Below, piece after piece: positions 144 through 21,094 of a DNA stretch of 21,094 bases; positions within the stretch are counted from its first letter, which is position 1, and each line of letters opens with the position of its first letter. Position numbers and translations under genes: made by a program. The notes under the pieces were generated by a model. That model was not told the DNA's origin, did no database searches, and saw nothing but the letters and a program-made list of their open reading frames with translations. Source of the DNA: a virus. The stretch lies in IMG/VR virus record IMGVR_UViG_3300044624_001944, positions 1-21,094 of that record, one strand, 5' to 3'.

Positions 144-1121
144 TTAATCGATCCAGTTGTAATGCTTACCGATCAATTCGACCTTCAAGAAGCAAACAAC
201 GTCATAGAGGTCTACGGTCCTAGTAGGGCTGCTGTCCGTACTAGTAAACACAAACTTCAACGCAGTAGACTGCTTAAACACAGCGTTTTCAGTAGCCAGT
301 CCTCCAGGAACCACATTCAGAGTGAAAAGACCGCAGTTATCGGCGTTTGTTCCGTACCGAGTAGTTGATTTAAGCACTCCGACATTAGCCAAGGTGTTAT
401 AGTTACCTACGTCAGACAGATCAACACAGGCCAAGAACTCTGCCTCGACCAAGCAATCAGAATCATAATTAGCCGACACGCCAACTTTGCGAGGACACAT
501 CGCAAGCGTGACCTTGAACTGGGAGATATCCCCGAGCTTAAGCCCGAAAATAGGCTGCATATCTACCGGAAGTTCTTGAGTGCCGTCCTTAGCTAGAAGA
601 AAGCTATGGTTATAGCTGGGGCTAAGACTCAGGGCTGAAATAGTAGGAGGTACCGAAGTAGCTGGAGCAATAACTTCGTTGTAAACGCGAGCTTGGATGG
701 GCTCGTAAGTAGAGCACCAATTTGTACCGTCTTCGCTCCAAGACAGCTCAAACATCAGGTCAACATAAGCGGGCTCGGTAGCCGCCGTAAAAAGTGCGTT
801 TAGTGTGGCACCGGAGATAGGTGCTGTCAGCACGTAAGGGGCAGAATCTGTCGCTGGCGTAGCTGCTGTGCTAGCAAATACAGCGTAGGCCGTAGAGGTG
901 GCATACGAGTTAAGCTGCTTCATTGCAATTTGAACTAGCGAACCGTTAGGAAGCCTGAAAGGGGTGTTTGTGCCCCTAGTCAAGAACTTCACTTCAAACG
1001 CCGCAGTGTCGCCCCTCTTCAAAGAGATCCTGCTGGATGAACCATAATAAGCTGAGCCTGTTAGAGTAGTCTTTACTCGCCCAGTAGAGTCTACGAAAAG
1101 CTGAATCGGAAAGGTATACAT
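144..1121 (-). CDS. Putative distal tail / receptor-binding or baseplate protein
   Basis: This 325-aa protein is the last gene of the minus-strand tail operon, a position usually taken by fibre, tip or receptor-binding proteins. It looks beta-rich with no membrane segment or signal peptide. Residues 1-150 form one putative domain (RGDTAAFEVKF near 36-46, ELSWSEDGTNW near 125-135). A Pro/Ser/Thr hinge follows near 150-160, then a second domain to the end holding five of the six cysteines (209, 223, 231, 263, 310; the other is at 136). I recognise the general style of phage tail adaptor or fibre proteins but no named family. The ATG at 1121 has no Shine-Dalgarno sequence; a 65-nt gap upstream carries a candidate promoter, so it may be expressed separately from the genes before it. 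A strong terminator follows. Confidence 0.5.
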   Translation of the reverse strand: MYTFPIQLFVDSTGRVKTTLTGSAYYGSSSRISLKRGDTAAFEVKFLTRGTNTPFRLPNGSLVQIAMKQLNSYATSTAYAVFASTAATPATDSAPYVLTAPISGATLNALFTAATEPAYVDLMFELSWSEDGTNWCSTYEPIQARVYNEVIAPATSVPPTISALSLSPSYNHSFLLAKDGTQELPVDMQPIFGLKLGDISQFKVTLAMCPRKVGVSANYDSDCLVEAEFLACVDLSDVGNYNTLANVGVLKSTTRYGTNADNCGLFTLNVVPGGLATENAVFKQSTALKFVFTSTDSSPTRTVDLYDVVCFLKVELIGKHYNWID

Positions 1122-1186: not shown

Positions 1187-1408
1187 TTATTCCCCGTAAT
1201 TGATTGCCGAGTCACAACAGCCAGACACTCTTTGTGCAGATTCTGGCCATGCTCTACGCCTAATCTCCTCTGCCGCATTTGCCCATTTATTCAAAGGGCA
1301 ATCGGATACATCTTCGATAACGTAGTACTTTTTATCACAGTTTTGGTTAACTTCGCACGTCGTGCAAATCTTAACTCTCTTTTCTATTACCCATTTTGGT
1401 GCGTTCAT
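1187..1408 (-). CDS. Small cysteine-rich putative zinc-binding phage protein
   Basis: This 73-aa protein has cysteines at 15, 18, 24 and 37 in a C-x2-C-x5-C-x12-C arrangement, ending in CPLNKWA, plus an adjacent pair at 64-65. The layout and the closing CPLxKW motif resemble small phage proteins with a zinc-ribbon-like knuckle that are often found among tail and lysis genes; their function is unknown. Its ATG overlaps the TGA of the preceding gene (ATGA, 1405-1408), so translation is probably coupled by termination-reinitiation. Zinc binding is inferred from cysteine spacing only. A role in tail assembly is suggested by location alone. Confidence 0.55.
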   Translation of the reverse strand: MNAPKWVIEKRVKICTTCEVNQNCDKKYYVIEDVSDCPLNKWANAAEEIRRRAWPESAQRVSGCCDSAINYGE

Positions 1409-2121
1409 AAGTCTCCGTAGTTTTGGTCTATCTCTATAGTCCTAGTAGATGTTAACTCAAGACTAAATAGGCTATAGTTGCTGTACTCATCGCCTCCTGT
1501 GCCATAAACAAAAAGCCCTTTGTCGCTTGTAAACTGTTTCCCATTTTCTATCGCGTACTTAAACTCAACCTCGGAGGTAAATCCACCAGGAACAATTATA
1601 TTTTGCGTCAAGTCATCTTCTGGCCTAGTCCCCTCTGGGCAGCCTATAAGCAGTACACTTACGAATGTGTCGCAAGTCTCTGGCTCTGCTTCTGGGTCTG
1701 GAGGAGGAGCCTCCTCTTTAGCCTTCTTAGCCTTTCTGCCGTAGGCATTTAACCTTCCATCATACTTCTCGATAGGACAACCAATTAACTCATACGAAAA
1801 AAACATGTAAACGTCATATGGCATTATACTAGTAAAACTTGGGTTATACTTGCCTACCATTCCTACATCTGAAGTCCTAAAAAATGAGCCTTTATAAATG
1901 TGGTACTCCTCACAGGTAGGCCCTCTAATAGCCCAATCGCCCGAAGGGAGAATCCCGCTATTAATTTTGCAGATATCTTTATAGGTAAGATCTGTTTTTA
2001 AATTCGCAGACTCATTAGCTACGACTGAGGTAACCTCACCACTACCAAATGCTGTAAGTTGAATATCGAATTTTGAAGTGATCTTGCCTTTTTTTATTGT
2101 CGCGTATTTCCAGCAATTCAT
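1405..2121 (-). CDS. Hypothetical distal tail protein, two domains with a Pro/Glu linker
   Basis: This 238-aa protein has no recognised family. Two putative globular parts (about 1-125 and 150-238) are joined by a charged linker near 128-149, first Lys/Arg/Ala then Pro/Glu/Asp. The segment LIGCP occurs twice, near 112-116 and 158-162, which could mark a degenerate internal repeat. It starts 4 nt after the stop of the giant repeat protein and overlaps the next gene by 4 nt, so it belongs to the same transcriptional unit. No Shine-Dalgarno sequence precedes the ATG. Position between a fibre-like giant protein and a distal gene suggests a virion or fibre-assembly role, but this is inference only. 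Confidence 0.45.
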   Translation of the reverse strand: MNCWKYATIKKGKITSKFDIQLTAFGSGEVTSVVANESANLKTDLTYKDICKINSGILPSGDWAIRGPTCEEYHIYKGSFFRTSDVGMVGKYNPSFTSIMPYDVYMFFSYELIGCPIEKYDGRLNAYGRKAKKAKEEAPPPDPEAEPETCDTFVSVLLIGCPEGTRPEDDLTQNIIVPGGFTSEVEFKYAIENGKQFTSDKGLFVYGTGGDEYSNYSLFSLELTSTRTIEIDQNYGDL

Positions 2122-2125
2122 AAAA

Positions 2126-5100
2126 CTAAGTCCATGCTAGGCTACAGGGTTTAGCGTATATACCTCCGCACACGCTAGTTAATTTTGATATATAAGAGCC
2201 TCCTGATGGGCCTCCTGTTGATATTACAACAGTACCTATCAACTCATACTGCACGTCCACCGTATTTTTCTTTGGAGTAGTGGACACCTCTATAGTGATA
2301 CCCTCTTCTTCTTCTAGTAGCTCTACGTCATCTTCTTTGTAAGCCAGCTTCATGTAGATATAGCAGTTCTCAGTTACGGCTATGACATAGTCTGGAAAGC
2401 CTAAACCCATACCAGACGGATACCTGCCTTCAACTAATCCAGATGCAATTCCGACTTGTAAAGTGAGTGCTCCGTTGTCTGACTCTGTAGAGGCGTCACT
2501 TAAGCTAAAAGGACACGTAGCGCCGCCTCCACCGCTACCTGAGCCATAGCCTAAAAACTGAGGCGTATCACAAGAATTTACAATATATGAAACCTTGCTT
2601 CCGCCTTCTCCACTTGAAGAGATCGATACTTCACCAATTAAAAAGTACTTAGTTGTAGCTGTAGACTTTTTGTATGTGTTGTACTTCTCAAATTTTAAAG
2701 ACCCTTCTTCGGTCTTAGGCTCGCCTTCTTCATCGACCTTTATTACTAGGTAAATCGCATACCACGATGCCCCACTTACGTCCATCTGGTATTTATCACC
2801 GGCAGCCATCCCTTCGGGGTAGTTACCTTTTACTGTACCATTTCTAATTTGGATTAGCGGGCTATCGTTAGAGGCGCTAAATATTTCAAAAGGACATGTT
2901 GGGTATAGCCTGGTACTTGGGTAGTTACAGTAGTTTCGTATAAACGATATATACCTACCGTTTTCTGAGTCAGTACTTACGTTTACCTCTGCCACCAACG
3001 TATATAGCTTTTCACAAGTCGATTCAATGTAGCTATCACTAGTCTCAAAGTACATTGAGCCGTTTTCCTGCGATAAACTAAAGTCTTCGTTCAGCATAGC
3101 GACGAAGTATACGGCCATATACTCTGAGTCGTTTGGTACATTAAGGATGTAATCGGTTGAAGCAGACATCCCTGAGGGATAAGCGCCTTCAACCATAGCG
3201 TTTGATACCTTAACTTTAAGCCCGCTTTCGTCGCTCCAATCTAGCACTTTAAAAAGACAATCATTTGCAGCGGAGGTAACCGCAGGGGGTTCTGGCACTA
3301 CGCAGTAGTTCTGTATATACGTTATGACATTATTGCTCGCCTCATCGGACCCTACATTTACTTCCGCAAGTAGGACGTAATAAGTATCAGACGTATTCTC
3401 TTTATACCCCTCGTCTGTGGACTCTATCCATAGGTTTGCGTCTCCTTCTAGTATTTTACCAGAGCTGTCGACCTTCATGCCGCAGTAAATAGCGTACCAC
3501 TCACTGGTGCCTAGAGGCAGTTCGTAAAGGGTATTTGCGGACATCCCTGACGGGTATCTATCGCTAACCTTACCGTTTCTAACAATAACTGCTACGTTTC
3601 CATCTACTGTAGCGTCCACAACCGCAAAAGCACACGTCTCTAGCCCAGGAGGTTCTGGGTATGGGCAGTAGTTTTGTATGTAGCTTACATAGCTATTACC
3701 CTGCTCATTTTGTGAAATCGTGACTTCACCAATCGCGGTATAGAGGTACTTACCATTCGAGTTTTTATACGTATCGAATGCTTCGATGTAGCAGTCTCCT
3801 TGACCAGAGATGTCGAACTCGCCTTTATAGTCGAGCTTGATGACAAGGTACAGAATAGCCCAGTCACCTTGGATTTGAGACAAATTGTACTCGTAGGCCG
3901 CTTCAGTTGACATTCCATCTGGGTACTGTCCGTCAACTTGACCGTTTCTAATAATTACAGCAACCGTGTTATCCTCACTGGCATCCAGTATTGAAAACGC
4001 ACAGTTATCGGGCTTAAGAGGTTCAGGATATGGGCAATAGTTCTGTACGTAGCTTACGTACTTTTTATTTTCCTCATCAGTCGAAATCGTGACTTCACCA
4101 ATCGCGGTATAGAGGTACTTACCATTCGAGTTTTTATACGTATCGAATGCTTGAATATAAAAGTCGCCGTCTCCTTGAATATCGAACTCGCCCTTATAGT
4201 CGAGCTTGATGACAAGGTACAGAATAGCCCAATCACCTTGGATTTGAGACAAATTGTACTCGTACAAGGTATCTCCAGACATACCGTCAGGATATTTGTC
4301 GTCAACTTTACCGTTCCTTACTACTACGGCTACGGTATTACCCTCACTTGCGTCTACGATTGAGAACGCACAGTTATCTATGCCAGGAGCCTTTGGCTCT
4401 GGGCAATAGTTTTGAATATAACTTACGTACTTTTTATTGTCCTCATTTGTAGAGATAGTTACCTCAGCTATTGCTGTATAAAGATACTTAGCATTTGACC
4501 TTTTATACGTATCGAATGCTTCGATGTAACAGTCTCCTTCACCTTGAATATCGAACTCGCCCTTATAGTCGAGCTTGATGACAAGGTACAGAATAGCCCA
4601 GTCACCTTGGATTTGAGACAAATTGTACTCATATAGTGTATCCGCTGACATTCCGTCAGGGTAGTTGCCGTCGACTTGGCCGTTCCTTACTATCACCGAT
4701 ACGTTGGTATCTTCGCTTGAGTCGATTACTGAAAACGCGCAGCCGTCTATCCCAGGCGCTTCAGGATACGGACAGTAGTTCTGTATGTAGCTTACATACT
4801 TTTTATTGTCTTCACCTGTAGAGATGGTGACTTCACCAATCGCGGTATAGAGGTACTTACCATTCGAGTTTTTATACGTATCGAATGCTTCGATGTAGCA
4901 GTCGCCTTCACCTTGAATGTCAAACTCGCCTTTATAGTCGAGCTTGATGACAAGGTACAGGATGGCCCAATCACCTTGAATCTCGGATAGGTTGTACTCA
5001 TAGACCGCCTCGGTTGACATCCCGTCTGGATACTTACCATCAACCTCACCATTGTTTACCGTAACCACCACTGTTCCGTCTTCACTAGCGTCACCTATTG

Positions 5101-8100
5101 AAAACGCACACTCGTCAACCCCAGGAGGTTTTGGCTCTGGGCAATAGTTCTGTATGTAACTGGCATACTTATTGCCGTCATCATCTTCTGAAATGGTTAT
5201 CTCGGCTATGGCAGTGTAAAGAAATTTAGCATTTGATTTTTTGTATGTATCAAACGCTTCAATATAAAAGTCGCCATCTGATTGAATATCGAACTCACCT
5301 TTATAGTTGAGCTTGATGACAAGGTAGATAATCGCCCAGTCGCCTTGGATCTCGGATAGATCATACTCATAAACAGTATCTGCTGACATACCAGATGGAT
5401 ACTGTTTATCGACTTGGCCGTTCCTTACTATTACAGACGTGGCTCCGTCCTCGCTGGAGTCTATCGTAGCAAAAGCACACTCCTCTAATCCAGGTGCTTC
5501 AGGGTACGGACAGTAGTTTTGTATGTAGCTTATGTACTTATTGCTACTTTCGTCTTGTGAGATAGTTATCTCCCCGATTGGTATCCTATGGTACTTACCA
5601 GTAGACCTAAGGTACTTATCCGAGGCGATTATGTAACAGTCGCCGTCTCCTGCGATGTCAAACTCGCCTTTATAGTCGAGCTTGATGACAAGGTACAGAA
5701 TAGCCCAGTCACCTTCAATCTGAGATATGTCCGCGAGGTACATGGTATCCGCAGCCATGCCGTCGGGATACGCATCTCCTACTTTTGCATTTCTAACTAG
5801 CAGCGATAAAGAATCTTCTTCTGACGCATCTACTAACGCAAAGGCGCAATCCTCTGCCCCTGGGGCCTCGACTAGGGGACAGTAGTTTTGTACGTAACTT
5901 ACGTACTTTTTATTTTCGTCATCTGTCGAAATAGTGACTTCGGCAATAAGTACTCTATGGTACTTAGCTGTCGATTTAAGGTACTTATCCGAGGCGATTA
6001 TGTAACAGTCGCCGTCTCCTGCGATGTCAAACTCGCCTTTATAGTCGAGCTTGATGACAAGGTACATGGCGGCCCAGTCTCCTTGTATGTCATTCAAAGT
6101 GTACAGGTACATCTGATCGGTAGACATCCCGTCTGGATACTTCTCGTCAACAGTACCTACCTTAACGGCTACCTTAACATTACTAGCGTCCTCTGGATCA
6201 GTAGCGTCTTCTACACTAAAGTTACACCCATCCAGTGCATTTACTCCAACGATAGGGCAGCGGTTAATTATCTTATTTGGTACTACTATAAGGTTAAAAT
6301 TTTCGTTTATTACCTCGGCGGTGCCAATCAGTGTTCGCTGTATAGCAGAACCGGATTTTAGGTACTTAGAACTCGGCCTTATAGTAATTGCCTCTTCGCC
6401 ATCATATATCAGCCCTAACTCGTTAACTAGTATCTCAACGTAGATGTATACTAGTACCGAGTCTGACTCATACGGAGAAAGGTCCAGGATATACTCTGTA
6501 CCCTCAGTCATCCCTTGAGGGTACCGGCCTTCGACTTTGCCATTAGCAATTTTAACCTTTGGCTCTATGTAATTACCGTCTTCGTCTCTTTCTCCGGCAG
6601 GTGATAATTTAAAAGGACAATTAAATACGTCTCCTACCTCGGGAACATAACAGAAGTTCTCGATAAAAGAGATATAGCGGGTCGTGTCTTCCCTAGAAGA
6701 GACGTTAAGGGTGCCTATTAGTCTGTATACCACCTCCTCGGTGTCTTCCATATACTCCTCAGCAAGCATAAAAGAAGATGAGTTTTCACCTTCAGTTAAG
6801 ACGTAGTCTTGTATGGAAAGGACAGCGTAAACTGCGTACCAGTCTTTATCAGGGTCAATATCGAGCTGATAGTTACCCCTCTCCTGCATTCCTATTGGGT
6901 AGTATCCTCCTATTTTGCCATTTTTGATTTGTATCTTTAGGGCCTGAGGAGAATCGCTAGCATCCTCAATTTCAAAACTACAACTATTCGGCTTCTTTAT
7001 GTCTATAAGTGGGCAGTAGTTCTCGACCTCAATAAAGTATTTTGGTACACCGCCGTCTCCCGAGTTAAATAAGAGCGGCCTAACCCTGGCTACTGGTATA
7101 CGTTGGATACACGATCCAGACGATAGCCAGTATGGAGTGACTTCTACTGTTACTGCCTTATCGTACTCCTGGACGACTCCGTACTCGTCCAGCATTATCT
7201 TTATGTATATATAGATGTCTTCCTTCTCCAGTAACTCTTCTGGTACATCTATCTTGAATTCTTGGTTTTCAACCATCCCATCTGGATACCTATCCGATAC
7301 CTTAGCGTTCCTTATCCGCAGCTTAAACTCGGAGTTATCAGGCCAGCCTTCTTCTGGGTATTCAGTGGCGTCAGATACTTCAAAGTTGCAGTATGGCTTT
7401 AACTTATGGTAGTCAGCCACTACTTGCTTACATGAGTTGATTATACTAGAGATGTAAATATGACTACTCTCGTCGTAAGATCTAGTTATCTCGCCTATTA
7501 GTTCGTATTGAGTGTCGTAGGTGTTCTCAGCGTACTCCTTTAAAAATACGACCTCTACAGCTTCAGCGTCTTCTAGGACTTGATTGTTATCTGGGTTAAA
7601 CTTTATCTTTATGTATACAGCAAGCCAATCAGTACTGACTGTTAGATCCTTAATTATCGGATCATCTTTAGTCATTAAATTTGGATAACGCTCTTCTGCG
7701 TAAGGTATCTGTACTTTTGATTGAGCGACCCTTACCTTGAGCTTTAACTGGTCACCCTCACTCTCGCCTGGCTCTGATACATCCGTAATACGGAAATAAC
7801 ATTCAGTTAATGCTGGCAGTGTTATATCACTACTCCATTTTTGATTGATATAGGTGATTTCATTAGTATTGAAAATCTCACCTATCTCAAAAAACAAGTC
7901 GGCCTGTATAGTATCGGATGGGTGCCCGCTCTCGGTGTAGTTATGGAGTATTAGTGAAACCCTATCTTTCTCATCCTCCGCAGACAGTAAAACCTTAAGA
8001 TAGACTCTCCATACAGGGCTATTAGCCTCGGCTAACTGATTTGTAATATTGAAGGCGGCTGGAAAGTCTATACCTAGCTGCTCGTACCCAGGAGACTCCG

Positions 8101-8503
8101 GCAGTAATATTTTTACCTTATCTATGGTTGGAACGACTACTTGATCCACTCCATTAATCTTAAGCGATACCGTTCCCTCATAGACAAAGAGCTTTGAGTT
8201 ATACTTATCGTAAAAAAGCTCGAACCTTCTAGGCTTGTAGCCTTTATTTTGATCAAGTAGCTCAAAAAAGACGGATGTACCATTGTCGACCGCCCTTATG
8301 TCTGAGCTGCTCTCAAAAGACTTAGTCTTTGAGGCGGTCTTCTGAATTGCATCAGATAGAGAGTTAAGCGCCTTCTCTAGTTCCGGTACGTCAGGGACCG
8401 TAAACCTAGGAATGTTTATACCACTATTTGGCTCGTACATAAGTATTACGTCTTTAAATCTAGTCTGAGCCAGTCGTAGATCCCTGGCCGTATATAAAGG
8501 CAT
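2126..8503 (-). CDS. Giant tail tip / fibre protein with 15 tandem ~123-aa domains
   Basis: This 2125-aa protein has a unique N-terminal part (residues 1-234, whose end looks like a degenerate repeat) followed by 15 tandem domains from residue 235 to the end. Each domain opens with a C-x-F segment, then a KYPDGM-like turn, then usually a DW(A/Y)-type strand leading to YLVIKLDYKGEFD in the central copies, and closes with a YIQNYC-like strand. Units 5-11 (residues 760-1623) are very similar; units 1-4 and 12-15 are diverged. All look beta-rich. No enzymatic motif, membrane segment or known fibre chaperone domain was seen. It follows the tape measure and one tip protein, where siphoviruses encode tail-associated proteins and fibres, so a long rod-like adhesin is the best inference. 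The start overlaps the upstream gene by 44 nt; an ATG at 8437 is an alternative. Linkers contain a conserved cysteine pair. Confidence 0.7.
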   Translation of the reverse strand: MPLYTARDLRLAQTRFKDVILMYEPNSGINIPRFTVPDVPELEKALNSLSDAIQKTASKTKSFESSSDIRAVDNGTSVFFELLDQNKGYKPRRFELFYDKYNSKLFVYEGTVSLKINGVDQVVVPTIDKVKILLPESPGYEQLGIDFPAAFNITNQLAEANSPVWRVYLKVLLSAEDEKDRVSLILHNYTESGHPSDTIQADLFFEIGEIFNTNEITYINQKWSSDITLPALTECYFRITDVSEPGESEGDQLKLKVRVAQSKVQIPYAEERYPNLMTKDDPIIKDLTVSTDWLAVYIKIKFNPDNNQVLEDAEAVEVVFLKEYAENTYDTQYELIGEITRSYDESSHIYISSIINSCKQVVADYHKLKPYCNFEVSDATEYPEEGWPDNSEFKLRIRNAKVSDRYPDGMVENQEFKIDVPEELLEKEDIYIYIKIMLDEYGVVQEYDKAVTVEVTPYWLSSGSCIQRIPVARVRPLLFNSGDGGVPKYFIEVENYCPLIDIKKPNSCSFEIEDASDSPQALKIQIKNGKIGGYYPIGMQERGNYQLDIDPDKDWYAVYAVLSIQDYVLTEGENSSSFMLAEEYMEDTEEVVYRLIGTLNVSSREDTTRYISFIENFCYVPEVGDVFNCPFKLSPAGERDEDGNYIEPKVKIANGKVEGRYPQGMTEGTEYILDLSPYESDSVLVYIYVEILVNELGLIYDGEEAITIRPSSKYLKSGSAIQRTLIGTAEVINENFNLIVVPNKIINRCPIVGVNALDGCNFSVEDATDPEDASNVKVAVKVGTVDEKYPDGMSTDQMYLYTLNDIQGDWAAMYLVIKLDYKGEFDIAGDGDCYIIASDKYLKSTAKYHRVLIAEVTISTDDENKKYVSYVQNYCPLVEAPGAEDCAFALVDASEEDSLSLLVRNAKVGDAYPDGMAADTMYLADISQIEGDWAILYLVIKLDYKGEFDIAGDGDCYIIASDKYLRSTGKYHRIPIGEITISQDESSNKYISYIQNYCPYPEAPGLEECAFATIDSSEDGATSVIVRNGQVDKQYPSGMSADTVYEYDLSEIQGDWAIIYLVIKLNYKGEFDIQSDGDFYIEAFDTYKKSNAKFLYTAIAEITISEDDDGNKYASYIQNYCPEPKPPGVDECAFSIGDASEDGTVVVTVNNGEVDGKYPDGMSTEAVYEYNLSEIQGDWAILYLVIKLDYKGEFDIQGEGDCYIEAFDTYKNSNGKYLYTAIGEVTISTGEDNKKYVSYIQNYCPYPEAPGIDGCAFSVIDSSEDTNVSVIVRNGQVDGNYPDGMSADTLYEYNLSQIQGDWAILYLVIKLDYKGEFDIQGEGDCYIEAFDTYKRSNAKYLYTAIAEVTISTNEDNKKYVSYIQNYCPEPKAPGIDNCAFSIVDASEGNTVAVVVRNGKVDDKYPDGMSGDTLYEYNLSQIQGDWAILYLVIKLDYKGEFDIQGDGDFYIQAFDTYKNSNGKYLYTAIGEVTISTDEENKKYVSYVQNYCPYPEPLKPDNCAFSILDASEDNTVAVIIRNGQVDGQYPDGMSTEAAYEYNLSQIQGDWAILYLVIKLDYKGEFDISGQGDCYIEAFDTYKNSNGKYLYTAIGEVTISQNEQGNSYVSYIQNYCPYPEPPGLETCAFAVVDATVDGNVAVIVRNGKVSDRYPSGMSANTLYELPLGTSEWYAIYCGMKVDSSGKILEGDANLWIESTDEGYKENTSDTYYVLLAEVNVGSDEASNNVITYIQNYCVVPEPPAVTSAANDCLFKVLDWSDESGLKVKVSNAMVEGAYPSGMSASTDYILNVPNDSEYMAVYFVAMLNEDFSLSQENGSMYFETSDSYIESTCEKLYTLVAEVNVSTDSENGRYISFIRNYCNYPSTRLYPTCPFEIFSASNDSPLIQIRNGTVKGNYPEGMAAGDKYQMDVSGASWYAIYLVIKVDEEGEPKTEEGSLKFEKYNTYKKSTATTKYFLIGEVSISSSGEGGSKVSYIVNSCDTPQFLGYGSGSGGGGATCPFSLSDASTESDNGALTLQVGIASGLVEGRYPSGMGLGFPDYVIAVTENCYIYMKLAYKEDDVELLEEEEGITIEVSTTPKKNTVDVQYELIGTVVISTGGPSGGSYISKLTSVCGGIYAKPCSLAWT
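3635..6226 (-). repeat. Tandem coding repeat with an exact 369-bp period (units 5-11)
   Basis: Within the giant tail gene the plus-strand decamer tcgagcttga (ttgagcttga in one copy) recurs at 3831, 4200, 4569, 4938, 5307, 5676 and 6045, exactly 369 bp apart. Unit boundaries set at the opening cysteine codon fall at 6226, 5848, 5479, 5110, 4741, 4372, 4003 and 3634; only unit 5 is longer (378 bp). The flanks of the decamer are nearly identical in DNA, including synonymous positions, in several copies. This indicates recent duplication or gene conversion rather than long selection on protein alone. Copy number may be collapsed or variable in short-read assemblies. Confidence 0.95.
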
Positions 8504-9209
8504 TCCACCCGCCAGGGGTAGATAGCTTCCATTGTCTTGTTACTTTAAACCCTAACCCTACAGGTTCAGAATCCGCTCCTATTAGAAGCCAATTACAATC
8601 CGACGGAACTGTTATAAAGCTGCTTACATTAGGCGGAGTATCTACCCTTCCTATTTTACTAAGATCGGCCTTTACTGAACTTGATAGGTTACTAGCCCTT
8701 TCATAAGTGACAGTTTCTTGAAACGTAATGCTCGGAGCTAAGTAGGATTTAGTACCGTAAAATAATCTTTGTATAGGGGTATCCAGCTTAGTAAAGCCTA
8801 AGAAGGTTTCTCGTAGTGTGCCGACCTTTTCAAATTGAGCCCCCGTTTGTTCTGGGACTATGAATTTATCAAAATCTTTATGCTGCTGTATCGGCTCTGA
8901 GCTAACAGCAGATTTCATTGAATACTTGGGCAGCGACACGCCCGTTCCCTGCCCACCACCCTGTGGAGCAATACCTTCAAAATTAGCAGATATTCTGGCT
9001 ATGCCACCCTCTTCAAAAGTAACTTTTATGTTTTTCCTTAATAGGTAAGAGTAGTCTGGGTGTGCTGCCATCCCATTTGCGGCGCTTACCGCGCCTTCAT
9101 GGCTACAAGTGTATTCCACGGTGGCGCTGGTTATGCCCTCCTCTGAAATGGTCACCTGAGACCCGACGGTCTCAATGATACTTAAACTGCCTTTAACATC
9201 TACGGCCAT
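8460..9209 (-). CDS. Putative distal tail / tip protein downstream of tape measure
   Basis: This 249-aa protein begins 1 nt after the tape measure stop codon and ends 44 nt inside the giant repeat gene. In siphoviruses this slot usually holds the distal tail (Dit-like) protein that caps the tube and anchors the tip, and that is the working assignment, by position. The sequence is beta-rich, with a Gly-rich loop (APQGGGQGTG, residues 80-89) and a C-terminal segment WKLSTPGGWNAFIYG. I cannot match it to a named family. It has two cysteines in its visible core and no membrane helix. No Shine-Dalgarno sequence precedes the ATG, so reinitiation after the tape measure stop is likely. Confidence 0.5.
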   Translation of the reverse strand: MAVDVKGSLSIIETVGSQVTISEEGITSATVEYTCSHEGAVSAANGMAAHPDYSYLLRKNIKVTFEEGGIARISANFEGIAPQGGGQGTGVSLPKYSMKSAVSSEPIQQHKDFDKFIVPEQTGAQFEKVGTLRETFLGFTKLDTPIQRLFYGTKSYLAPSITFQETVTYERASNLSSSVKADLSKIGRVDTPPNVSSFITVPSDCNWLLIGADSEPVGLGFKVTRQWKLSTPGGWNAFIYGQGSTTGSD

Positions 9210-9210
9210 A

Positions 9211-12200
9211 CTATGTGATTCTGATTACTAGGGTTTTTGAGCTGTCTCTGTTGGCTTTAATAATGTTAGAATTAATGCTGTTAAGAACTGAATTCGCGCT
9301 CATTAACTCTTGAAGCTGTTGTTCCGCATACCTATCCCCGGAATCTGCGATCTCTGGAGTATTCAATAATCCAGCAGCCGCGCCAAAAGCAGGAGACTTC
9401 AGTGGTGAGCCATACATTAAATCTTGGATTCTTTCTTCATCTCGCGGTACCACCGTTTGTAGCCGCTGCATCATTGGGGTTACTATACTTTCAGGCGTAG
9501 CTTGACGCTGCGATTCTGAGCCGCCCATAAGCCCTCCCCTCCTTGCGACGCCGATGAAGTCGAGCATCTCTGGAGTAGTGATATCGTTTCCTGTAGCCCT
9601 ATAACCTAAAGCTGTGGTGACAGGCTGCCCTAACGACAGGCCCTTCTGCTCGATTGGCTTACCCATATCATCAAACGCAACTGCTACACCTCTTTGTATA
9701 GCGGAGGAAAGAGGAGTAGCTAACTCCAGCTTTGTTCCAAGCGTTGATGTTATGTTTGCTATGTTCTGCCTACCAAGAGACTGATTACTAATTGCGGAGG
9801 CCCTACTTGCCTCAGCACGAACTGCCTCCTCTAACTCACGTTGCTGAGCATTAACCCTCTCTATTTCATTACGCATCCGCTCTGGCATCTTTCCAGTCCT
9901 CGCCCACAGACCTAGGTCGGTTTGCATCTCAGGCTCCGTAACTGAGCCTGCTTTTGGCTTACGTGTAATCCCCTTTGTATCCTCCTTTAGGTCGACGCCA
10001 GCATTTCCGCCTTTCATTGCTGCGGTAAGGGCGTTAGTCGCTAACGTATTTTCTTTTGTAGCCTTTTCTAGTGGGGACGTTACCGCCCCAAATTTACTAG
10101 TCCATACGCCGGAACCTACTTCCTTCATAGAACCCACCACCAAGTTCATTGTATTGGCGGTCTTACCATCTAATTTAATCTCACCCACTCCGGTGCTAAC
10201 TTTTCCTCCAGTAACCTTATCCAATGTCTTCGTAGGCGCACTGGCAGGTGTGGGCGCATTTCTCGACATTAGAGAAGAGAATCTAGCCTTGTCGGCATCG
10301 AGTGTAGCTTTGCTTATAACATCGACAGGCTTAAAGGACGAAAGCGAATCGATAACAGGCCCAGCAAGTCCTTTGCTTAGAGCGTCGGCTACTGCCGACA
10401 GTGCCCCAGGCAGCGACTCTTTGGCCTTAGCGAGATCTTCTTTTGCTGAGCGTTCTAAATCGGAAGGGGCGGTACCTACGATAGTCCTAGCCTGTGCCGC
10501 AAATTGCTCTCTACTGCCTTTATAGTCCCCTACTATACCAACCCTTTCACCTTCTCGCTCAAGTTTTCTTAACGCAGCGTCTTGAGCTTTAATAAAGGGC
10601 TCTATGTAGGCGTTATACGCTTTTGAGGCTCGGTCAAGTTCAGCCCTGCTTTGGTCACTTCCGGTTATTTGAAGATCAATTGCGGCATTACGAACCGCGA
10701 AAGCTGCGCTACCGCTCTGTGCGGCCATAAGTTTGCGGTCTGCGTCCCCAGCTTCTAACCTTGCCTTTTGATAAGCAGGGCTGGTAGCCGATGACATGAC
10801 TCCGGCTGCTTCGCGCATTTTATGTACAAACACATCACCAGCGTACATTACGTTTTGGATCAACGATGTACTGAAGTCCTCGTTCCCCTTTATAAAATTA
10901 GCCATTGCTAATTTTATGGCCGCCGATAAAGCGTTACCTAACGCAGTGGCGACGTCCAACATGCCTCTCCAGAAACTTAGGCTTGCGGCTACCTTAAGTC
11001 CGCCTAGTAGAAACTGAACTGACGACTGCATGACGGCTACTAAAGCCCCCATAAAATAATTTATGGCAGTTCCAAAACCTATCCTTAATCCAGTACTTAC
11101 AATATCCCCTAAGTCTCCAAACTGACTTGCGTTTTTAAGCGTGTCTACGATATCGGCTATCCTGATTGATAAGTCCTTAGCCTGCTGCACAACCCCCCGC
11201 ATCATATCGCCAAAGCCGCTTCTGAATATTCTGTTAACTAGGTAATCCCAAGATGCTGTGAGTCTCTGAAAGTCTTTTCTTAGGTTGTTGGTAACATCCT
11301 GCTGCATTATAGCCGCTGTTCCTTGCGACTTATTTTGCACGGCGTTCAAAACGTCTAGGTACTGATTATATACAGTAATCAAGCTCCCAGCCGCCAAACC
11401 GCCACGAACACCAAAGATCGCCATTGCATCAGCAGCGTCAATGCCTCTCGCCCTTAGCGTGCCAATAATCTCCGAGAGCTTGTTCGCTCTTGGGTCTATC
11501 TTGGACATATCCAGCCCTAGAGCTTGCAGCTTCCTGCTAGAATATGAGGTCGTGTCGGTTAAGTCAGACAGCATGTCACGAAGCGTCGTACCTGCCTGAC
11601 TAGATTCAACCCCTGCTGTCGATAGCGCACCTACCGCAGACACCACCTCATAAAACGGCTGGTTTGCGCTTCGGGCAGCAGTACCAACGTAGGCCATCGC
11701 CACCCTAAGCTGGTCGATGCTTGTTTTAGAAACTGCGGATGTTTTGGCGAGCTTGTCTACGAAATCTGTAAGGTCAGAAGCAGACGCTTGGAACTGCGCC
11801 ATCATACTCGTAACAATACGAGATGCATCACCTACGTTCATCGCCTCTACCTCGGCAAGGGCCAGCGTATCGCCTAGTGACTGCACTGCTTGCTTCGTAG
11901 TGAGTCCGCCTTGCGTAAGTTCTTTAAGCGCCTCTGCGGCCTGGGTGGCGCTATAAGTAGTCGTTCTACCCATTCGGAACGCTTCACGCTCCATAGCCAA
12001 AAACGCATCGGTAGAATAATCAGAGGCGTTTCTTGAGACCGCCTTGACCATACCCATCGCGTTATCAAAGTCAGCCCCTGTCTGTAGTATCTTCTTACCA
12101 AATTCCTTAATCGCCTCAGCGCCAGCATAAGTGCCGACTAGTAAGACCAGCTCTCTTGCTAGAGAACCAACCACTGAACTAACGGTAGAGAACGCTGAGC

Positions 12201-13461
12201 TTGAAGACTTGACAGAAGACCCAGCGGATCTAGCAGCACTGCTTGTCGATCCATATGATGCCGCCAATCTACCCAAGAGGCCAATCTGGCTAGCAATACT
12301 CCCAGCAGCAATGCCTAGTATTCCAGTAAAAAGGCCCATTGAAGACCTTGCAGACCCTATTGCAGTGGAAAGAGAGCCCGAGATCGTGCCGAGCTGAACT
12401 AGTCGAGTGTAGAGACGCTGTGCGGAGCTGGCCGCTGCCCTTAACGCAGCAGCGAAGGGCCCGACGGCTGCGGTCATCGTGACAAACGCGCCCGAAACAC
12501 CAGGTGCCGCTGAGGCCATAGCACTAATCGAGGTAACTAACCTGGATGTGCTTGTGGACGATCTTGCGATGGTTGCTGTGGCAGAAGCAACTGTAGACAT
12601 CGCTGTGGCGTACCTTTGCAGGTTTACGATGTTTAGAGTAATTGCGTTAGATAGCAACTGAATGCCAGCGGCTTGCGCTGCCAAAGCACCTATAGAGGAA
12701 CTGGTGGCGGCTAACCCTCTACTCGCGCTCGCAATCGTCCTAAGCGCAGTTGCATAATTTTGAACGGGTCCAAGGGCAGTAGTTAATACACTACTTAGCC
12801 CGCTCATTCCCGTAATTTGCTGACGGAAGACATTCCCAATGTCAACAGCACCGAGCCGTTGAAAGGAACGAGCCATCGACGCCAGCATTCCTGGATAGGC
12901 GGATATGCTTGTCGAGCCCCTATCCAGAGCAACGGCTATAACCCCAATCTGCCTGGCTAACCTTGTGGCGTCTACAGAGTTTATTGCAGACGCAAACGCC
13001 TGTAACTGCGTTCCAGCAGCCGCGATATTTAGAGTGGCCGAGGAAGCACTAACTGCCGCTAGTGAGGCGGCTAACGTGCTTAACGGAGTAGCTAAGCGTA
13101 AAGCGGCAGTGCCCAGTCCGCTGACCGAGCCGACAAGCCCAGTCATAGCAATGTTAAGCTGACTGGCCTGCGTCACCATTGGCGACACGTTTATGCCAGA
13201 CAAGGCCCTATTAGCCGTGCTAGCCGCTGCGGCTACGGCGGTTAGTGGGACAGATAGACGGCCAGCCGCAGCCCCTAACGCATTTACCGAAGGTATAGCG
13301 CCGGACACCGCAGAATTAAACTGCTGTATCTGCGCTAGTACTCTTCCATTAAAAGTACTGCCTAGAGCGATTAGACTAGTACTAAGCCGCGCTAAAGCGT
13401 CTTCAGCGGATTTAGAATCAACCGATACTCCTAACGCGACTTCATGTGCCGTCTTAGCCAT
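9211..13461 (-). CDS. Tail tape measure protein
   Basis: This 1416-aa protein sets tail length and is probably ejected with the DNA. The first ~440 residues are extremely Ala/Ser/Thr-rich, low in charge and predicted to be helical. From about residue 460 to 760 comes the conserved phage tail tape measure core (TP901/PhageMin_Tail type), recognisable from segments such as FDNAMGMVKAVSRNASDY, ATQAAEALKELTQGGLT, STAGVESSQAGTTLRDML and DFQRLTASWDYLVNRIF. Hydrophobic stretches near 370-445 and 790-850 match the membrane-active segments usual in tape measures. The C-terminal third is hydrophilic and partly disordered. By the usual 0.15 nm per residue the tail would be about 210 nm. It follows the chaperone pair directly (9-nt gap to the frameshift stop), the canonical order. 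Confidence 0.95.
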   Translation of the reverse strand: MAKTAHEVALGVSVDSKSAEDALARLSTSLIALGSTFNGRVLAQIQQFNSAVSGAIPSVNALGAAAGRLSVPLTAVAAAASTANRALSGINVSPMVTQASQLNIAMTGLVGSVSGLGTAALRLATPLSTLAASLAAVSASSATLNIAAAGTQLQAFASAINSVDATRLARQIGVIAVALDRGSTSISAYPGMLASMARSFQRLGAVDIGNVFRQQITGMSGLSSVLTTALGPVQNYATALRTIASASRGLAATSSSIGALAAQAAGIQLLSNAITLNIVNLQRYATAMSTVASATATIARSSTSTSRLVTSISAMASAAPGVSGAFVTMTAAVGPFAAALRAAASSAQRLYTRLVQLGTISGSLSTAIGSARSSMGLFTGILGIAAGSIASQIGLLGRLAASYGSTSSAARSAGSSVKSSSSAFSTVSSVVGSLARELVLLVGTYAGAEAIKEFGKKILQTGADFDNAMGMVKAVSRNASDYSTDAFLAMEREAFRMGRTTTYSATQAAEALKELTQGGLTTKQAVQSLGDTLALAEVEAMNVGDASRIVTSMMAQFQASASDLTDFVDKLAKTSAVSKTSIDQLRVAMAYVGTAARSANQPFYEVVSAVGALSTAGVESSQAGTTLRDMLSDLTDTTSYSSRKLQALGLDMSKIDPRANKLSEIIGTLRARGIDAADAMAIFGVRGGLAAGSLITVYNQYLDVLNAVQNKSQGTAAIMQQDVTNNLRKDFQRLTASWDYLVNRIFRSGFGDMMRGVVQQAKDLSIRIADIVDTLKNASQFGDLGDIVSTGLRIGFGTAINYFMGALVAVMQSSVQFLLGGLKVAASLSFWRGMLDVATALGNALSAAIKLAMANFIKGNEDFSTSLIQNVMYAGDVFVHKMREAAGVMSSATSPAYQKARLEAGDADRKLMAAQSGSAAFAVRNAAIDLQITGSDQSRAELDRASKAYNAYIEPFIKAQDAALRKLEREGERVGIVGDYKGSREQFAAQARTIVGTAPSDLERSAKEDLAKAKESLPGALSAVADALSKGLAGPVIDSLSSFKPVDVISKATLDADKARFSSLMSRNAPTPASAPTKTLDKVTGGKVSTGVGEIKLDGKTANTMNLVVGSMKEVGSGVWTSKFGAVTSPLEKATKENTLATNALTAAMKGGNAGVDLKEDTKGITRKPKAGSVTEPEMQTDLGLWARTGKMPERMRNEIERVNAQQRELEEAVRAEASRASAISNQSLGRQNIANITSTLGTKLELATPLSSAIQRGVAVAFDDMGKPIEQKGLSLGQPVTTALGYRATGNDITTPEMLDFIGVARRGGLMGGSESQRQATPESIVTPMMQRLQTVVPRDEERIQDLMYGSPLKSPAFGAAAGLLNTPEIADSGDRYAEQQLQELMSANSVLNSINSNIIKANRDSSKTLVIRIT

Positions 13462-17782: not shown

Positions 17783-19474
17783 TTACGCGGCGTAGCCAAT
17801 ACCGACCACCACAGTTGGGTTAACTGCGCTCGGCGTTTCCTTCGGCGTGAACGCACGGCGGAAGGAGGCGATAACCGAGTTGATCTGGCGCTTGCGATCA
17901 ATGTCCACTTCAACGGTGAACCCACGGCGGGAACCCACCATGAACTGGGGCTTATTGATGAGCAAGAGCGACCCCTGGGTGGTGGTAGCACCATCAAAGA
18001 TACCAGCAGCGGTGAGATCTTCGCGGACCCTGGACGACACCACAATGCGGATACCAAAGATGCTCGCAGCGTTACCCGTGAGGATACGAGCGGCAGCAGT
18101 GTTACCGACCTTGTCGAAGGTGAGGGTCTCGTCGAGGTTGACGATGTCGTTGTAGCCATTCGGCCCAACGAGCAGCATCAAGTCAGCGGGACGCATACCA
18201 AACTTGCCCATCTGCTTACGCATTGCAGCGATGTTGTCGGCACTAATGCCGCCAGTCATCGTCTTCTTGGTTGCGTTGTTGGCCAGGGCGAGCTTACGGA
18301 AGCCGTTGAACGCACGAAGAACCGAAGTAGCGACGGTGCCAGTGTCCTGAGCGCCAGCGGTGTCGCCGTTGATCAGAGCGTCTTCGTAAGCGTCCGCAGC
18401 GCCAGCAGCGAGCTGTTCCTGGATCATCGGAAGGATGGCGATGATGGAGTCTTCGTCAGCTTCGTAGCTGTACTCGGACATGCCGATCAGCTTCTTACTG
18501 TCGAGAACCACCTTGCCAGTCCCAACGTCAGAGGCCGTCGGGTCAGCGCCAGGGGCTTCAGAACCGATGCGGAAGGTCGGACGGGTTGTGACGAGCGGCA
18601 ACTCGAAGGGCTGCGTGGGCATCGCAATTTCAGCCGCGAGCATTTCAGCAGCGAGCAGAGACTCGATGTACATACGCATCTGGAGATCGGCAGACAGGTC
18701 GGAGGGGATAAGCTCCAAGCCAGTGCCAGCGCCAGTGGTGGTCAGCGCCTTAGCGCCCTTTCCGTAAACGATGCTTTCACGGAGCGACTTGATTGCACGC
18801 TCACCGGAAGCAGCAGCAAACGCCAACTGCGAGTTGGTGATGCCGTCGTTCATGTGCGTGGGCAGGGACTTCCCGCCGTTCAAACGCTGCGTCGTAGCCT
18901 TGGCTTCGTCGCTCGTCCCCATGACCATCACGTTCAGAAGCTGCTTCTGAGCGACGGACATGTTACCAGTACGATGCTCGCAGGGGAACTGAGCCGAGGA
19001 GGCATCAAACTCCACCTTGGAAGGCGTGCGAATGCTCTTGGCGAAGTTGTCCAAAGCAGCCGTAAGTTCCTTGCTCGTAATGCCTTGCTCAGGCATGAGC
19101 TTCTTAACTTCAGCAACCAGGGCGCTGTGGTCAACACCTGCACCAACGTGCTTCTTGATGAGGGACTCAACGTCGTCGGCCTTCAAAGCCTTCGAGGAGC
19201 GGATTTCGGAAAGGAGAGCTTCCGTGTCCACACCAGAGGAGGCGGGCAGAGCCTTCGTGACGGCGCGAGCGATCAACTCGGACAGCTCGTCAGACGACAC
19301 ACTCTTTTCGCCTTCTTCAGCGTCAGGAGCGAACTCGTCAGCGATGAGGTCAGCGTCCAGGCCAGCGGCCTTCGCACCTTCAACGAGGGTGTTGTATTCA
19401 GCGGTTTCCTCGACAGAGCGGTTAGCCGACTTAGCAGCCAGCAAAGCGAGACGGAGTTTATCTTTCAGTTTCAT
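17783..19474 (-). CDS. Major capsid protein, HK97 fold
   Basis: This 563-aa protein has a long N-terminal region (~1-230), acidic and helical, that corresponds to the HK97 delta/scaffold domain normally removed by the prohead protease encoded just upstream. The shell domain runs from about 240 to 545: IPSDLSADLQMRMYIESLL, then the strand/E-loop stretch, then DAYEDALINGD (~361-371, the usual spine helix end), an A-domain PADLMLLVGPNGYNDIV, and the late strands GSRRGFTVEVDIDRKRQ and SVIASFRRAF. The delta region is about twice HK97's. The gene uses codons differently from its neighbours (few CTA/TTA Leu codons, GC-richer), as expected for a highly expressed gene. A terminator follows. No Shine-Dalgarno precedes the ATG. 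Confidence 0.92.
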   Translation of the reverse strand: MKLKDKLRLALLAAKSANRSVEETAEYNTLVEGAKAAGLDADLIADEFAPDAEEGEKSVSSDELSELIARAVTKALPASSGVDTEALLSEIRSSKALKADDVESLIKKHVGAGVDHSALVAEVKKLMPEQGITSKELTAALDNFAKSIRTPSKVEFDASSAQFPCEHRTGNMSVAQKQLLNVMVMGTSDEAKATTQRLNGGKSLPTHMNDGITNSQLAFAAASGERAIKSLRESIVYGKGAKALTTTGAGTGLELIPSDLSADLQMRMYIESLLAAEMLAAEIAMPTQPFELPLVTTRPTFRIGSEAPGADPTASDVGTGKVVLDSKKLIGMSEYSYEADEDSIIAILPMIQEQLAAGAADAYEDALINGDTAGAQDTGTVATSVLRAFNGFRKLALANNATKKTMTGGISADNIAAMRKQMGKFGMRPADLMLLVGPNGYNDIVNLDETLTFDKVGNTAAARILTGNAASIFGIRIVVSSRVREDLTAAGIFDGATTTQGSLLLINKPQFMVGSRRGFTVEVDIDRKRQINSVIASFRRAFTPKETPSAVNPTVVVGIGYAA

Positions 19475-20820: not shown

Positions 20821-21094
20821 CCCTCCGGCCTCCGGCCCGATCCGGCCTCCGGCCTCCGGCCCGCCCTCCGGCCTCCGGCCCGCCCTCCGGCCTCCGGCCC
20901 GCCCTCCGGCCTCCGGCCCGCCCTCCGGCCACCGGCCCGCCCTCCGGCCTCCGGCCCGCCCTCCGGCCTCCGGCCCGATCCGGCCTCCGGCCCGATCCGG
21001 CCTCCGGCCCGCCCTCCGGCCTCCGGCCCGCCCTCCGGCCTCCGGCCCGCCCTCCGGCCTCCGGCCCGCCCTCCGGCCTCCGGCCCGCCCTCCG
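20821..21094. repeat. GC-rich 19-bp tandem array running off the window
   Basis: The plus-strand unit CCCTCCGGCCTCCGGCCCG occurs 11 times (one copy with a T to A change at 20931) interleaved with three shortened or altered units beginning ATCCGG: 24 bp at 20840, 17 bp at 20978, and 17 bp at 20995. A partial unit ends the window. Each unit contains two copies of the 7-mer CTCCGGC. The array is almost entirely G and C, unlike the phage region. The minus strand is G-rich with closely spaced GG/GGG runs that could fold into G-quadruplexes. The open frame through it encodes only a Gly/Arg/Pro repeat and is not a gene. It may be a contig-end chimera, a host or eukaryotic minisatellite, or a genuine terminal structure. 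Confidence 0.95.

Follow-up and report, generated by a model that had tools for sequence, protein, structure and literature searches.

Tandem beta-sandwiches are known from the N-terminal parts of phage receptor-binding proteins (RBPs), with five in the Bacillus phages Deep-Blue and Vp4 and four in streptococcal phages (PMC11406892). Related in kind are the shoulder domains, two-sheet sandwiches which attach RBPs to the baseplate; the shoulder of the lactococcal phage p2 RBP is resembled by the N-terminal domain of TssK and likewise by SPP1 gp22 (PMC7291167), and that of p2 is formed by two sheets of four strands each, an alpha-helix lying between the first and the second strand (PMC3499812, PMC7291167). 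The present work concerns P0001, a tail-tip protein encoded in the IMG/VR virus record IMGVR_UViG_3300044624_001944, a metagenomic record of 21,094 bases which was analysed over its whole length and is hereafter called the window. P0001 consists of an N-terminal anchor, a probable degenerate unit (unit 0) and 15 tandem units. Like the RBPs of Deep-Blue, Vp4 and the streptococcal phages, to which it is likened by architecture and not by homology, it is a tail protein with tandem domains, here predicted to be beta-sandwiches; however, those RBPs have four or five domains followed by a trimeric prism and a chaperone, whereas P0001 has 15 units and no such C-terminus, and p2 and TssK carry a single such domain each. 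Stalks built from sandwiches have precedent, and a tail-tip domain repeated 15 to 16 times is an extreme case of this architecture. As judged from profile comparisons, the array arose by tandem expansion from a pre-existing tail-tip domain, unnamed in databases, and does not represent a domain of unknown origin. We propose, with a probability of roughly 0.6, that P0001 is an expanded version of the tip protein encoded after the tail tape measure protein (TMP) and the partner protein P0003, and that its array forms a long rod projecting from the tail tip.

The open reading frame (ORF) of P0001 spans window positions 2126..8503 on the minus strand, as do all its parts given below, and encodes 2125 residues with no internal stop codon. 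A unit profile detects exactly 15 copies between residues 235 and 2122, with scores of 105-178 bits each; since the profile was built from the 15 units themselves, these self-scores set the boundaries and do not test them. The units are 109-126 residues long, each followed by a linker, and the array accounts for ~89% of the protein. The preliminary description, made from the sequence alone, had read this ORF as 15 tandem units of ~123 residues with a YPDGM-type turn and a closing NYC, covering about 90 percent of the protein, and this layout is borne out. Seven residues (C1, F3, Y27, P28, M31, Y52 and C113) are invariant in 15/15 units, the Cys1/Cys113 pair thus being present throughout, and YPxGM is found in 14/15, unit 1 having YPNLM; residues 1-234 contain no cysteine. 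A DNA pattern of the turn region has 11 matches in the window, all within the P0001 gene (0.00 expected from shuffles), and Tandem Repeats Finder (TRF) reports a 369-bp x 4.9 array in the same gene.

Along the protein, the unit profile places unit 1 at residues 235-371 (7391..7801), unit 2 from residue 372 (6983..7390), unit 3 from 508 (6620..6982), unit 4 from 629 (6227..6619) and unit 5 from 760 (5849..6226). They are followed by six units of 123 residues each, namely unit 6 from residue 886 (5480..5848), unit 7 from 1009 (5111..5479), unit 8 from 1132 (4742..5110), unit 9 from 1255 (4373..4741), unit 10 from 1378 (4004..4372) and unit 11 from 1501 (3635..4003), and then by unit 12 from residue 1624 (3260..3634), unit 13 from 1749 (2897..3259), unit 14 from 1870 (2516..2896), after which comes a Gly/Ser-rich linker, and unit 15 from 1997, which ends in the C-terminal tail ...SVCGGIYAKPCSLAWT (2129..2515). 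Protein identity is 59-82% among units 6-11 and 54-63% between these and unit 5, while the outer units 1-4 and 12-15 are only 23-42% identical to the rest. Units 6-11 are 63-80% identical in DNA, and their synonymous codons (at identical residues) agree at 39-70%. These two figures exclude an assembly artefact or a collapse of identical repeats, and the low synonymous agreement of the central units further indicates that the array is not a fresh duplication.

Ahead of the array, residues 31-76 (8276..8413) form a conserved segment with the motif PELEKALNSLSDAI, predicted to be helical and homologous to the N-terminus of tail proteins encoded after the TMP in other phages. Residues 77-234 (7802..8275) correspond to unit 0, a degenerate copy without cysteines which, according to profile matches, is the one held in common with the relatives. 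Translation could start at the ATG at 8503, which overlaps the P0003 gene by 44 bases, or at the ATG at 8440 (Met22). The latter may be the true start, because the relatives begin near P0001 residue 29 and because the annotated start overlaps the upstream gene.

The genomic position of P0001 is shared with the tip genes of related phages. The gene is located directly after those of the TMP (P0002, 1416 residues, 9211..13461, minus strand; PF10145 with E 2.4e-32, and PHROG tape measure families) and of P0003 (249 residues, 8460..9209, minus strand), a partner whose gene also immediately precedes the tip gene in related phages; this agrees with the tail-tip position first proposed for P0001. A query with the major capsid protein (563 residues, 17783..19474, minus strand) led to 11 relatives at 46-65% identity, and a deeper query raised their number to 65. 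The window and the relatives have their head and tail genes in synteny. The order TMP - P0003 homologue - P0001 counterpart is kept in G001, G004, G011, G021 and G023, with counterparts of 452, 392, 542, 286 and 555 residues, respectively. With phmmer, the G001 protein (contig L021) matches P0001 residues 31-232 (E 7e-13) and the G004 protein residues 33-137 (E 1e-7). Both tip proteins have the homologous N-terminus and the same gene order as P0001, but behind the first domain they continue with a Ser/Gly linker and a C-terminal domain of another kind, with no tandem units. The 542-residue G011 protein, which gives two weak in-register matches only, may hold two copies.

Simpler counterparts are found in other relatives from IMG/VR. 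The gene after the P0003 homologue(s) in G024, G028, G029 and G032 encodes a protein of 199-241 residues with one F..v...V..G.V.G..P domain, and a protein of 213-238 residues with this domain is encoded two genes after the TMP in G008, G013, G016 and G018. Iterated profiles merge these small post-TMP proteins into one family with the domain profile F..v...V..G.V.G..P ... lIg.V; in each of 9 records, the family profile has a single match. The small relatives at L158:2009-2731, L159:2180-2878, L162:5211-5906 and L160:3301-3897 share with P0001 the post-TMP position and the N-terminal helix motif, and their F..v...V..G.V.G..P domain is homologous to the P0001 units; they differ in having a single domain in 199-241 residues, mostly no Cys pair, and a ..FFW/FFP tail. 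When viral sequences were scanned with the G024 and G029 single-domain proteins, nothing but these two proteins was retrieved. Among the metagenomic phages covered here, where the preliminary description had envisaged a search for the unit, no secure second array was seen, but related single-domain proteins were.

The link between the array and the small proteins is carried by profile comparisons. A family profile made from 8 post-TMP proteins, none of them from the window, was searched against 9,164 ORFs, among which P0001 was the best non-seed match (E 4.8e-17 summed over copies), the Gly-Val-Pro region of the profile falling in the same register on nearly every unit. As the scores of repeats add up, controls were made by permuting columns identically in all units: the 15 units alone reach 51.7 bits against the 8-protein profile, and the maximum of 200 column-permuted controls is 3.8. 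In hhalign, the units align with the 8-protein family over almost the whole unit (E 2.3e-6, score 43.6; 100 permuted controls with a maximum of 15.3 and a mean of 10.9; reversed, 11.1), and a repeat of this comparison with a second tool run gave a probability of 88 and E 3.1e-6. A further test was free of preselection and covered, across 13 loci, all 21 tail-region families that have at least 3 members: two tip clusters scored 30.0 and 25.5 against the units, and the other 19 families had a mean of 11.2 and a maximum of 14.4. For the N-terminal family of P0001, hhalign against the single-domain family gave E 1.4e-6 and a score of 48.4 (controls at most 14.7), with an alignment extending from the helix motif, at residue 31, to residue 114 of P0001; in early runs with few sequences, unit 0 matched the relatives' domain with a probability of 94-95. 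Two lines of argument meet here, given that the N-terminus and the units of P0001 both resemble the same small proteins. At the level of profile similarity, these comparisons establish that the units and the N-terminus are homologous to small tail proteins at the same genomic position. By eye, the P0001 end SVCGGIYAKPCSLAWT also bears a faint resemblance to KSCGVRHFFWGV, with which two single-domain proteins terminate, as though the original ends of the protein had been pushed apart by added unit copies.

This relationship emerged only once positional homologues had been grouped. The 15-unit profile alone had no match in the 11 capsid-found relatives, which is explained by the too strong divergence of unit 0 and of the relatives' domain. 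P0001 itself found no match in 50,697 phage records (tblastn), in plasmids or among PDB sequences, and no relatives were recovered from viral and genome contigs with back-translated P0001 patterns, from viral contigs with a DNA motif scan, or with P0002 and P0003 as pattern queries. Against Pfam, no family reached the curated cut-off for the whole protein, Ig-like, carbohydrate-binding and fibre families included; single units gave weak matches only (best E 0.014) and no carbohydrate-binding family for any unit. Single units were also weak against PHROGs (best E 0.034), where the whole protein matched a low-scoring unknown family of 70 residues (24.4 bits, E 4.4e-5) with no single stretch significant. 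A weak match in a faecal record was dropped, as it is located in a beta-galactosidase-like gene. The earlier statement that no fibre, Ig-like or hub domain is recognised in the protein stands in so far as no family among Pfam and PDB sequences names the unit; the N-terminal ~230 residues, in turn, match the conserved tail-tip protein of the relatives. In the same way, the suggestion of a new modular domain is right in that the unit is beta-rich and unnamed, but the domain is not isolated, being homologous to single-domain post-TMP proteins and having a baseplate-like predicted fold.

The fold was modelled for units 9-10 with AlphaFold2, from an alignment of 14 sliding two-unit rows taken from P0001 itself. 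The model has a mean predicted local distance difference test (pLDDT) score of 90.3 and a predicted template modelling (pTM) score of 0.81, and DSSP assigns strands only, with no helix; the unit is confidently predicted to be an all-beta sandwich, in line with the beta-rich character first noted for it. A Foldseek search of the PDB with the two-unit model returned nothing at E < 0.001; the solved matches that follow come from VIA re-alignment. The best solved match is a baseplate protein of the Staphylococcus phage phi812, in two chains (9euj_G / 9eui_Q), with Z 8.6 and 8.3 at 2.9-3.0 Å across 90-91 residues and 13% identity for the Z 8.6 match. The N-terminal domain of TssK, from the baseplate of the type VI secretion system (T6SS), follows below Z 8 (Z 5.4-5.6, root mean square deviation 4.0-4.4, 100-102 residues), and every remaining match listed has Z <= 2.9. 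A Z near 8 would be insufficient alone, but the gap to the rest, together with the fact that phi812 and TssK both point to baseplates, makes the fold match of the model credible. Unlike the unit, the phi812 domain occurs singly, is interrupted by a large insert and forms part of a larger protein, in a phage with a contractile tail. No sequence relation between the units and the phi812 baseplate proteins was detected. The phi812 tripod protein (DUF4815) and the arm scaffold TmpF are present in both 9euj and 9eui, chain G/Q being either of them; a similar pattern is seen by eye in tripod residues 205-245 and 400-470, without support from profile comparison. The unit was not assigned to the p2 shoulder domains, as its model lacks the shoulder helix; p2 RBP, SPP1 gp22, carbohydrate-binding module (CBM) and fibre chains are not among the structural matches listed, which excludes nothing. 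In BFVD, the top matches are uncharacterised proteins of 186-230 residues from uncultured Caudovirales phages (E 1e-4 and 4e-3), with two proteins annotated 'Receptor Binding Protein sandwich domain' at E 0.38-0.42. A sequence search of solved structures with the profile of the single-domain family found none.

It can be hypothesised from these comparisons that the N-terminal ~230 residues, a helix and one degenerate domain, would be the ancestral part, docking P0001 on the tail tip as in the relatives, and that the beta-sandwich domain was duplicated behind this conserved N-terminus to give 15 recognisable copies. As linkers of about 10-16 residues join the units into a string, the array most likely forms a long beaded rod extending from the tail tip. 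Such a rod would extend the reach of the tip and/or multiply its contacts with the host surface, and the Cys1/Cys113 pair could staple each unit, or join neighbours, after the virion has entered oxidising surroundings. A more specific version, in which the tip domain was duplicated into a disulfide-stapled rod of ~16 domains, roughly 60 nm long if extended and if 4 nm per domain is assumed, that sets the distance of contact between tip and host, with copy number as a tunable length, is tentative and less likely than not. Several observations weigh against the proposed rod. Single units are individually marginal against the relatives' profile (best E 0.025), the direct profile match between unit 0 and the 15 units is weak, and the model of residues 1-236, made with 5 sequences, has a pLDDT of 33 and does not confirm the fold of unit 0. 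No secure relative has an intermediate copy number, and no C-terminal receptor-binding head is recognisable in P0001. The array would be extended, outward-facing and host-binding, as judged from its position and architecture.

The missing head is also what would be expected if the array were mainly not a spacer but a multivalent RBP whose units bind glycans on the host surface with high avidity. The BFVD matches to RBP sandwich domains are a weak hint in the same direction, and the divergence of the outer units next to the similarity of units 5-11 also speaks for it. We nonetheless consider such an adhesin unlikely, as no unit has a carbohydrate-binding family in Pfam, the YPxGM/NYC motif looks structural, being invariant even in units with 25% identity, and the single-domain relatives are placed at the tail tip, where the domain may serve for anchoring. 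For the choice between a spacer for another adhesin and glycan binding along the length, the absence of a C-terminal head and that of a known carbohydrate-binding family point in opposite ways. Resemblance to baseplate packing domains would instead fit a compact scaffold, with the units packed side by side as a pseudo-oligomeric collar or skirt around the tip, for example as pseudo-trimers, as the p2 and TssK shoulder domains which they resemble form trimers. The array would then replace copies of a small connector; 15 equals 5 x 3 copies, and each tail of the relatives presumably contains several copies of the single-domain protein. Linkers of ~10-16 residues, together with a divergence that is gradual along the chain, are more in keeping with a string than with a closed ring, however, and the similarity between units has no period of three, which makes this arrangement improbable. 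Least plausible by far is an array outside the virion or an inert, neutrally expanded repeat. The contig is metagenomic, with no isolate, and the expansion is seen in this contig only, but the frame is open over 6.4 kb, protein identity in units 6-11 is 59-82% against 39-70% synonymous agreement, the seven invariant residues are kept in every unit, and the location in the tail operon is conserved. The long rod on the tail tip is the reading that we retain.

With regard to the rest of the window, the genes upstream of P0001, in the sense of transcription, encode a head maturation protease, the capsid protein, a head-tail adaptor, a neck protein and the TMP. P0003 is possibly a distal tail or tube protein. 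P0001 is followed by P0004 (238 residues, 1405..2121, minus strand), without family, and further on lies P0005 (325 residues, 144..1121, minus strand), a virion-type protein without family which has a relative in G008 and in L013: it matches (E 5e-12) part of a 954-residue protein upstream of the G008 capsid gene and a protein in L013, in positions that differ from that in the window. With no sheath gene recognised among those of the window, the phage is likely a siphovirus. At the end of the contig, a GC-rich array with a 19-bp unit, CCCTCCGGCCTCCGGCCCG, runs out of the record (20821-21094, 14.4 copies, 94% matches) and may be a noncoding repeat or an assembly edge.

Side by side with these features, the relatives show some variation around the tip gene. 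P0003-type genes occur as two consecutive copies at L158:408-2004, L159:515-2170, L160:921-3301 and L161:8085-10459; in G028 and G032, the second of the copies carries additional fused domains. At L162:4153-5208 and L019:12348-13580, an HPF/HPW...GFVNG or GFVRG pattern is also seen in the gene that follows the single-domain tip gene; this following gene perhaps encodes a second copy of the tip domain in a separate protein. In G001, the gene after the tip gene (L021:11636-14296) encodes 887 residues, nearly all Ser/Gly, with a Cys-rich end. Distant relatives of the capsid protein (L077-L139, about 28-37% identity) are found in many contigs of Anaerolineae/Chloroflexota metagenome-assembled genomes (MAGs), which are probably prophages; capsid relatives of ~30% identity, in these and a few other MAGs, are too distant for the host to be deduced, and such an assignment was discarded.

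The analysis connects a repeat that had not been recognised with a recurring, unnamed domain of post-TMP proteins in environmental phages. This domain has no Pfam or PHROGs family, and its predicted fold resembles parts of the baseplates of phages and of type VI secretion systems. P0001 provides a testable case in which a tail-tip module would have become a long array by duplication, and the resulting profile allows the missing domain family to be annotated.

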